Shown here: positions 38,142-40,996 of the stretch, in pieces
Layout of the letters: each line of letters opens with the position of its first letter
Numbering within the stretch: the stretch's first letter is position 1
DNA from: Alphaproteobacteria bacterium
GTDB lineage: Bacteria; Pseudomonadota; Alphaproteobacteria; Reyranellales; Reyranellaceae
Assembly: GCA_016870115.1 (NCBI GenBank)
Contig: VGCH01000012.1
Coordinates: 1-64,000 of the forward strand
Length of the DNA: 64,000 nt
Reading direction: 5' to 3'
Notes under the pieces: model-generated
Database searches by the model: none
Seen by the model: the letters and a program-made list of their open reading frames with translations, nothing else
Told to the model about the DNA's origin: nothing
Translations under genes and position numbers: made by a program

Positions 38142-39641
38142 TCACGCCTCATTCCGGCCGAGCCGCATATCGAGGTCGAACGGATAGAGCGGCCGCCGCA
38201 CCTTCTCATACTTGAACAGGCGCAGGTCCGACGCCGTACAGCCGTCGCCGTCGCACATCACAATGTGCTTGGCGATCGGCTCGAAGCCGGCGCGGAAATG
38301 CTGTCGCGACTTGATCAGCACGTACTTCTTGCGCCTCGGATCGACGCCGCAGTGCGTGAAGACACCGAGATCGTAGGGTTCCGCGCGCTTTTCCGAGACC
38401 ACGATCTGCATCTTGCCGGTGTCGAGCACCGCTGTTCGACCCATCCGTACCGTCGTGCCTGTGGCCATCGGCCCGGTGACGGTGAACTGCCCGTCCGTGA
38501 TGCACTTCACGCGGCCGGTCACGCTGAGTGGCTTGCCCTTCAGACCCATTGCCGGCATGTCGATCTTGCCGCCGAGCTGGAGCGTCACCTCCGCGCCCAC
38601 ACCCGCCGCGATCATCTGCGCCACGCACCCCGGATCGCAGATCGGCCCGGCACACGCGTCTTCGAGGCCCTGCCGCATCGCCTCCTCGATCACGCTCATC
38701 ACGTCCTGCGTGCCGCCCGAAGCGGTATTGTCGCCGTGATCCGCCATGACGACCGGACCACCGTCGAGCGACTTCGCGCGGGCCACTTGCACCGATAGCG
38801 GCTCAGGATGAAACAGGAAGCCCTCGCGCTTCTCCCAGGCCGTATCGAGGATCCGGTTCAGCAGGATCTCGCCCTCCGCCGTGCGCTTGTCGCAGACGAT
38901 GACCGACGAGAGCGCCAGATGCGGGATGTCGGCCTGCGGGAATCCGCCGAACACCGAGGCGTTCAGTACCGCGCCCGAATCTTCGGCGTGGTTCGCCATC
39001 CCCATCAGCGTCTTCATCGGCTCGCGTGACGGCGTGTGGACCAGCGAGCTACTCATGATCGGCCGGCTGCCCCAGATCAGCTTCGGCTCGATCTCGCCGG
39101 CCAGCAGGCGCATAAGCGTGCGGCCGGCGCGTCGCGCCGTGTCAGCCATGTCGATATGCGGATAGGTGCGGTAGCCGGTCATGATGGTGGCGCCGCGCAC
39201 CATGGCGTCGGTCATCTGGGTATGGAAATCGAGCGCCACCGCGATCGGGACGTCGGGCGCGATCTTGCGCAGCCGGTTCAGCAGCTCGCCTTCGCCGTCG
39301 TCTGTCGGTTCCGCGACCATCGCACCATGCAGCGCGAGAAGGACCGCATCGCACCCCTGCTTCACCGCATCGACGATCGCGCCCGTCATCTGCTCATAGG
39401 CCGCCGTCGTCACCAACCCCGAGGGATGCGCCGACGCCGCCATCGGGCAGGTGAACTCCGCGCCCGCCTTGCGCGCCACCTCGATGAAGCCACCCAGCGA
39501 AGTGTTCGTGCCCTCCGCCTCCTTGATCGCGGCCGCACCCGACAAGGCGCCGGCCCGCGCGAACGACTCAATGGGCGTCGGCAGGGGCGAGAAGGTATTG
39601 GTTTCGTGCATCATCATCGCGACAACGAACTTGCGGGCCAT
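38142..39641 (-). CDS. mlrC: MlrC-type M81 family metallopeptidase
   Basis: The 499-residue protein matches microcystinase C-like zinc peptidases. It shows MMMHETNTFSPL (residues 9-20), LALHGAMVAEPTDDGEGE near 102, VALDFHTQMTDAM near 134, and MADHGDNTASGGTQDV near 314. GAGGAGG lies 7 bases ahead of ATG 39641; the open frame upstream has no homology-like sequence. Most M81 members are not tied to microcystin and probably open cyclic or modified peptides or ureides. The D-aminoacylase next door suggests action on D-amino-acid-containing peptides. Confidence 0.88.
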   Translation of the reverse strand: MARKFVVAMMMHETNTFSPLPTPIESFARAGALSGAAAIKEAEGTNTSLGGFIEVARKAGAEFTCPMAASAHPSGLVTTAAYEQMTGAIVDAVKQGCDAVLLALHGAMVAEPTDDGEGELLNRLRKIAPDVPIAVALDFHTQMTDAMVRGATIMTGYRTYPHIDMADTARRAGRTLMRLLAGEIEPKLIWGSRPIMSSSLVHTPSREPMKTLMGMANHAEDSGAVLNASVFGGFPQADIPHLALSSVIVCDKRTAEGEILLNRILDTAWEKREGFLFHPEPLSVQVARAKSLDGGPVVMADHGDNTASGGTQDVMSVIEEAMRQGLEDACAGPICDPGCVAQMIAAGVGAEVTLQLGGKIDMPAMGLKGKPLSVTGRVKCITDGQFTVTGPMATGTTVRMGRTAVLDTGKMQIVVSEKRAEPYDLGVFTHCGVDPRRKKYVLIKSRQHFRAGFEPIAKHIVMCDGDGCTASDLRLFKYEKVRRPLYPFDLDMRLGRNEA

Positions 39642-39827
39642 GCCAACCTCCTCAACTCGCGCGTAAGCGCTTGATCCGGCGTATAAAATGGCAAACTCAC
39701 GGGACGTGCCAGCTTTGCGGGCAGTGCAAATCTGATAGGCAAAATTTTGGTGCGTTGCGAAAACGCCACACCCTGACTGCCTCACAAAACTATCGCAAGC
39801 CCCAGAAAAATTGCGCGAAACTGACCC

Positions 39828-39856
39828 TTGAACTCTCTTCGCACCTGCATCATTTT
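39828..39856 (+). promoter_or_regulatory. Candidate promoter of the intergenic sRNA
   Basis: TTGAAC (39828-39833), a 17-base spacer and CATTTT (39851-39856) give a moderate sigma-70 match. The -35 element is good and the -10 weak. It would start a plus-strand transcript near 39863, at the base of the first hairpin. The rest of 39642-39827 is AT-richer than the surroundings and presumably holds the mlrC promoter; I see no gene in it. Confidence 0.45.
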
Positions 39857-39861
39857 GAGGA

Positions 39862-39962
39862 GGCAGCAAACGCCGCGCCTGCGGCCTCTTTGTTTGCTGC
39901 AGTGCCCGTCTTGGGCGTTTCCTCCCTAAACTCGGGCCGCGCCTGTCGCGGCCCCTTTTTTT
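39862..39962 (+). ncRNA. Candidate trans-acting small RNA with unpaired CCUCCC
   Basis: A roughly 100-base plus-strand transcript is predicted between two minus-strand genes. It would fold into: hairpin 1, GCAGCAAAC (39863-39871) with GTTTGCTGC (39892-39900) enclosing GCCGC-gcct-GCGGC; hairpin 2, GCCC (39904-39907) with GGGC (39913-39916); a single-stranded GTTTCCTCCCTAAACTC (39917-39933); and a strong terminator. CUCCUCC-like anti-Shine-Dalgarno loops between hairpins are the hallmark of several alphaproteobacterial sRNA families that silence transporter and enzyme mRNAs. I cannot assign it to a named family. Confidence 0.6.
39934..39962 (+). terminator. Strong rho-independent terminator on the plus strand
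   Basis: GGGCCGCG (39934-39941) pairs perfectly with CGCGGCCC (39947-39954) around CCTGT, followed by C and seven T. It points in the plus direction, yet both neighbouring genes are on the minus strand, and read on the minus strand it has no T-run. It therefore ends a transcript that no protein gene explains. Confidence 0.9.
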
Positions 39963-39966
39963 GCCC

Positions 39967-40845
39967 CTACTCCGCCGCCAGCGCTCGCGGGACGACCAGG
40001 TCCGTGGCGAGCCGGCCCGCCTCGCGCAGGAACGCCGTCATCAACTCGGCCAGCGGCTCGAAATCGGCGGTCGGCATCATCTGCCGCTCGTCCATGTAGA
40101 GCGCGCGATTGAGTTCGATCTGCACCGCGTGGCGGCCCGCCCCTGGCCGACCGTACCGTTGGGTGGTGTAGCCGCCCGCATAAGGCTGGTTGCGTCGCAC
40201 CCGCAGCCCCTGGCGCCGCAGCCAACTCTCCAGCGCACCCATCAGGGCCGGCGCGCAGGCCGCGCCGTGATTGTCGCCCAGCACCACGTCCACGCGGCCA
40301 CCCCGCCCGACACCGGCCGCCGCCGAGGGCATCGAATGGGCGTCGATCAGCAGCACACCGCCGAACTCCGCCGCGGCCTCGTCGCAAAGCTGCGCCAGCA
40401 CCGTGTGATAGGGGCGCCAGCAACTGGCCAGCCGCCGTTCGATCTCCTCGGCCGGCAGCCGCCCGCCATAGATCGCCTCGCCGCTCGCCGCGACGCGCGG
40501 GATGGCGCCGAGGCCGGCGGCGACCCGCACGGTGCGCGGCGTCAGCCCGTCGGGCAGTGGCCCCTCGAACATGGCGGGGTCCATCTCGCCGGCCTCGCGA
40601 TTGGCATCGAGGTAGGTGCGCGGGAAGCGCGCGGCGAGGAGCGGTGCGCCGAGCGAGGGCGCCGCCCCGAACAGCAGGTCCACAAAGGCGTCCTCGGTGT
40701 GCCGCAATGCCACCAGGTCGAGGACAGACTGGGCGAGAAAGCGCTCGGGATAGGCGGCGCCGCTATGCGGCGAGGCAACGACCAGCGGCACAAGCATCGC
40801 CGGCAGGCGCGCGAGCCGGACCGCATCGTTCGGACCGAATTCCAT
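39967..40845 (-). CDS. hutG: N-formylglutamate amidohydrolase family protein
   Basis: The 292-residue zinc hydrolase releases formate from N-formyl-L-glutamate in histidine breakdown, or acts on related N-formyl compounds. It contains ASPHSGAAYPERF near residue 25, DANREAGEMDPAMF near 77, LIDAHSMPS near 163 and QIELNRALYMDE near 242. ATG 40845 has GGAGG almost directly ahead; TTG 40881 is an alternative. No hut operon genes accompany it, so the physiological substrate is open. Confidence 0.87.
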   Translation of the reverse strand: MEFGPNDAVRLARLPAMLVPLVVASPHSGAAYPERFLAQSVLDLVALRHTEDAFVDLLFGAAPSLGAPLLAARFPRTYLDANREAGEMDPAMFEGPLPDGLTPRTVRVAAGLGAIPRVAASGEAIYGGRLPAEEIERRLASCWRPYHTVLAQLCDEAAAEFGGVLLIDAHSMPSAAAGVGRGGRVDVVLGDNHGAACAPALMGALESWLRRQGLRVRRNQPYAGGYTTQRYGRPGAGRHAVQIELNRALYMDERQMMPTADFEPLAELMTAFLREAGRLATDLVVPRALAAE

Positions 40846-40921
40846 GCCTCCGTGATAGCCCGCGCCGGCCGGACTTGCCAATCCGGAGGCCCCGCGATAG
40901 ACGAACCCTCCCGATGGCGAT

Positions 40922-40996
40922 GGGCGCGTAGCTCAGCGGTAGAGCACTGTCTTGACATGGCAGTGGCCACAGGTTCGATCCCTGTCGCGCCCACCA
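40922..40996 (+). tRNA. tRNA-Val (anticodon GAC)
   Basis: A full cloverleaf is visible: acceptor GGGCGCG/CGCGCCC, D arm GCTC-AGCGGTA-GAGC, anticodon stem CTGTC/GGCAG with loop TTGACAT (GAC at 40954-40956), and T arm ACAGG-TTCGATC-CCTGT. The 3' ACCA is encoded, with CCA at 40994-40996. Anticodon GAC reads GUC and GUU valine codons. No repeat of the 3' end is seen nearby, so there is no sign of an integrated element here. Confidence 0.95.

Follow-up and report, generated by a model that had tools for sequence, protein, structure and literature searches.

The first description of the αR8 (suhB) family of small RNAs, from Agrobacterium, was of an RNA transcribed opposite to suhB and equipped with a promoter, an unstructured conserved core, and a terminator (PMC1273637). 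The family includes MmgR of S. meliloti (PMC7143759; PMC8401924) and SisA to SisD of Caulobacter (PMC12559287), and in most species a single copy adjoins an N-formylglutamate amidohydrolase (FGase) gene (PMC12559287). MmgR is a 77-nt Hfq-dependent sRNA with three predicted stem-loops (PMC7143759); it restrains both the accumulation of PHB and the level of phasin, and no target with which it pairs directly has been identified (PMC8401924, PMC12559287). SisA represses an mRNA via an anti-Shine-Dalgarno 10-mer, and Hfq assists this pairing (PMC12559287).

Family assignment and layout of the locus

In an Rfam covariance search of the window (the whole 64,000-nt stretch of DNA that was analyzed), two families matched: RF00519 (suhB/MmgR, αR8; "Makes More Granules Regulator RNA"), on the plus strand at 39897-39969 (59 bits, E = 1.4e-9), and tRNA, at 40922-40993. 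The RF00519 match is above the gathering score of 41 and spans positions 1-77 of the 77 in the model. An earlier note on this DNA had described an sRNA whose sequence matches no family it could name and had proposed a covariance search against Rfam; that search returned a known family above its curated cutoff, and FGase is the published typical neighbor of αR8, so this part of the note was wrong. Its interpretation of the locus as an sRNA that acts in trans and carries an anti-Shine-Dalgarno loop has good support. The locus is a genuine, ordinary member of the long-known αR8 family, to which it adds one more genome, and we have high confidence in the joint claim that it belongs to αR8 and shares the general mechanism in which the seed would block ribosome-binding sites.

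The sRNA lies in a 325-base gap (39642-39966) between two minus-strand genes. The length of this gap agrees with that given earlier, and the promoter boxes, hairpins, unpaired CCUCCC, and terminator previously named are all present where the note had placed them:

38142-39641, minus strand: MlrC-type (M81) gene (PF07364 and PF07171), with its ATG at 39641
39828-39833, plus strand: -35-like box TTGAAC, from sequence; relatives have CTTGMA at this position
39839-39849, plus strand: dyad GCANNTGC in the promoter spacer, conserved in relatives; putative operator
39851-39856, plus strand: -10-like box CATTTT, from sequence; CATTNT in relatives
39863-39900, plus strand: 5' hairpin of the sRNA, from the fold; among relatives, 6 of its 14 pairs show changes on both sides
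39904-39916, plus strand: second hairpin, GCCC-GUCUU-GGGC, from the fold and the Rfam alignment
39917-39933, plus strand: unpaired anti-Shine-Dalgarno seed GUUUCCUCCCUAAACUC, from the fold and conservation
39934-39962, plus strand: intrinsic terminator with U7, called from sequence
39967-40881, minus strand: FGase gene (PF05013, E = 1.4e-73), its frame counted from a TTG and its start provisional

The terminator is built as had been claimed: its stem-loop (39934-39954) has a perfect stem of 8 G-C pairs and a 5-base loop and is followed by one C and then seven T (39956-39962). On the opposite strand, the FGase gene ends with its stop codon at 39967, 4 bases past the T run, and the two transcripts may therefore overlap at their ends. 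Such proximity would suit a cis-acting element that serves the convergent FGase gene as a terminator or an antisense 3' region, with no free sRNA. We consider this very unlikely, however, because the locus has a conserved promoter of its own, hairpins, and an invariant core, and because other lineages keep the core even where the FGase gene is 600 to 800 bases away or was not found in the flank examined. The tRNA gene, on the plus strand, lies just past the FGase gene, on its 5' side. A 142-amino-acid plus-strand open reading frame (39671-40099) matched no Pfam family and was rejected as coding.

Two other groups of alphaproteobacterial sRNAs resemble this locus. AbcR1 and AbcR2 (αr15) are Hfq-binding RNAs with CU-rich anti-Shine-Dalgarno motifs and a terminator, and αr15 members are partly homologous to suhB (PMC7143759); SorY (RF02651) has its hairpins, CCUCCC, and terminator arranged in much the same order and was the sole other plus-strand sRNA family to appear at E values up to 10. 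Yet suhB is the best match, whereas SorY reaches only 17.3 bits against a gathering score of 111 and fails. Unlike AbcR1 and AbcR2, which have two anti-Shine-Dalgarno motifs, tandem copies, and other neighbors, the RNA described here has one motif and, in a search of this genome with the suhB model, a single locus, and its FGase neighbor suits αR8. It is thus highly improbable that this RNA is of the AbcR type, or another anti-Shine-Dalgarno sRNA such as SorY, in place of αR8.

Structure and conservation of the RNA

Folded as RNA, positions 39863-39962 reach -47.5 kcal/mol (z = -5.1 versus dinucleotide shuffles), and the fold recovers the two hairpins and the unpaired CCUCCC that the earlier note had expected upstream of the terminator. 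Within the seed, the core UUUCCUCCCU (39918-39927) is unpaired in the fold and invariant in 24 relatives. The start site of the sRNA is probably close to 39863. A GAGGAGG motif (39857-39863) could on paper fold onto and sequester the CCUCC, but we rejected this pairing because the motif is unconserved and for the most part precedes the likely start site.

In the same family, whose named members are mostly Reyranella, 35 of 36 genomes carry the αR8 RNA. Each of the 28 distinct family loci examined keeps both neighbors, FGase and MlrC (the table has 29 rows, with the window's own locus entered twice). An exact-match scan of named genomes for the core found it on 55 contigs; many belong to Reyranella or carry the label Enhydrobacter aerosaccus, and the remainder are mostly Rhodospirillales or Alphaproteobacteria bins, so the source of the window probably lies in or near Reyranellaceae. 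Across the class, a model of the full RNA finds it in 111 of 240 genomes.

In a covariation alignment of 24 sequences, 98.8% of cells are paired and 8 pairs are changed on both sides, 6 of them in the 5' hairpin. None of 500 shuffles reached the covariation score, and sliding the pairing partners destroys the pairing. Because both sequence and structure are kept in relatives with compensatory changes, these signals are not due to chance, and the conservation of the hairpins and CCUCCC core on which the earlier note had made its reading depend is borne out. The same evidence bears on whether this could be a decayed or silent αR8 copy that has lost its expression. The weak -10 box CATTTT would be in keeping with such a loss; against it, this is a single copy with an intact core, an intact terminator, and a covarying hairpin under constraint across the whole family, and we regard silence as extremely unlikely.

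The Rfam suhB model starts within the 3' arm of the 5' hairpin, so the covarying hairpin (39863-39900) falls almost wholly outside it; the model thus omits a structurally conserved element. Loci outside the family also fold a hairpin at this position, from unrelated sequence (median z of -2.0), which excludes the hairpin as a novelty of this lineage and indicates that it is a general, sequence-variable feature. A general 5' hairpin fits the prediction of three stem-loops in MmgR. The RNA resembles MmgR in its core sequence, second hairpin, seed, terminator, and single copy, and differs in that the predicted transcript is approximately 100 nt, with a long 5' hairpin.

Promoter and possible PhaR control

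The two promoter boxes are separated by 17 bases. Their match to consensus is weak, and a scan for sigma-70 promoters did not report 39828-39856; nevertheless, the positions of the boxes are conserved in relatives. Both boxes of the TTGAAC-N17-CATTTT promoter proposed in the earlier note are present as stated. The dyad between the boxes, GCANNTGC, is common to the αR8 genes of same-family genomes and may be an operator; a dyad between the promoter boxes has likewise been reported in the regulation of mmgR (PMC8401924). One out-of-family relative carries a compensated form of the dyad, GCGATCGC.

AniA/PhaR, a repressor that senses PHB, binds the mmgR promoter of S. meliloti, for which the listed site is CAATTGTGCACCGCAGCATTA (PMC12542648). 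The locus described here differs in having no PhaR/AniA-like motif near its start and a different dyad in its promoter spacer. The motif TGC[AG]NYGC, a pattern picked after the published sites and some of these sequences had been seen and hence not a blind test, occurs a short way upstream of the core in 27 of 30 loci from outside the family, compared with 11 of 354 control windows and none of the 29 family rows (the window's locus counted twice). This genome does encode PhaR, and its phasin promoter carries a canonical PhaR site, TTGCTGCGCTGCACA. The distribution of the motif suggests that PhaR control of αR8 may be class-wide and absent from this genome's family.

Proposed mechanism and candidate targets

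Most likely, by analogy, this sRNA works as SisA does in Caulobacter, assisted by Hfq and using its CCUCCC loop to block ribosome-binding sites. The two share the αR8 family, the anti-Shine-Dalgarno core, and the FGase neighbor; Caulobacter, however, has four siblings and a sponge, CrfA, whereas one copy and no sponge were identified here (PMC12559287 for Caulobacter). We infer expression, Hfq binding, and mRNA repression by base pairing at this locus from such characterized homologues. An RNA of approximately 100 nt would be read from the vegetative-type promoter at 39828-39856 and would end at the terminator near 39962, both ends being predicted. Its seed GUUUCCUCCCUAAACUC would pair with AGGGAGGAAACG-type ribosome-binding sites and block translation, probably with the assistance of Hfq, for which this genome has the gene, while the 5' hairpin probably shields the 5' end and holds the seed open. 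Likely targets would be carbon and nutrient functions, the best candidates being phaB and a solute-binding protein.

These two candidates turned up when this genome was searched for sequence complementary to the core; their sites adjoin the start codons of long open reading frames, and they were selected from a pattern that shows no overall excess of sites genome-wide (37 versus 43 for the reversed pattern). The acetoacetyl-CoA reductase gene phaB, which acts in PHB synthesis (TIGR01829, above cutoff), has the site GAGGGAGGAAGCG-ATG, which forms with the core a continuous 12-bp duplex of -23.1 kcal/mol that ends at the start codon. Among 140 genes sampled from this genome, no run with the core reaches 11 bp. 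GGGAGG is found at the phaB ribosome-binding site in 21 of 22 orthologues (21 genes of the same family, including this genome's own, and one of the same order). The background rates, estimated on 300 kb sampled from this genome and 400 kb from its relatives, are 6 of 140 (4.3%) and 5 of 179 (2.8%) sampled genes, and the comparison is conservative because the background gene starts were chosen for a good Shine-Dalgarno sequence. Two control genes chosen for carrying GGGAGG in this genome keep it less often (metK, 10 of 26; ccmC, 6 of 24). A strong ribosome-binding site can be conserved even where no sRNA acts on it, and the orthologues, being of common ancestry, are not independent. On this evidence phaB is a possible direct target of αR8, at less than even probability, and a testable one.

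The two leads could be combined: in this genome's family, αR8 may repress phaB directly while its gene has left the PhaR control that appears to be widespread elsewhere in the class. We rate this combined proposal as rather unlikely; if true, it would tie αR8 to carbon storage directly and in a conserved manner. The main value of the locus lies in comparison, and the phaB and PhaR leads outweigh the gene itself.

MmgR controls phasin in S. meliloti, whereas the phasin gene here has no strong pairing site; its only site is weak, with a 7-bp run, and we rejected phasin as a direct target. The solute-binding protein gene (minus strand) has the site GTTTTTGGGAGGAAACG-ATG, with two mismatches and pairing of 11 bp plus 4 bp, and several of its orthologues retain GGGAGG near the start.
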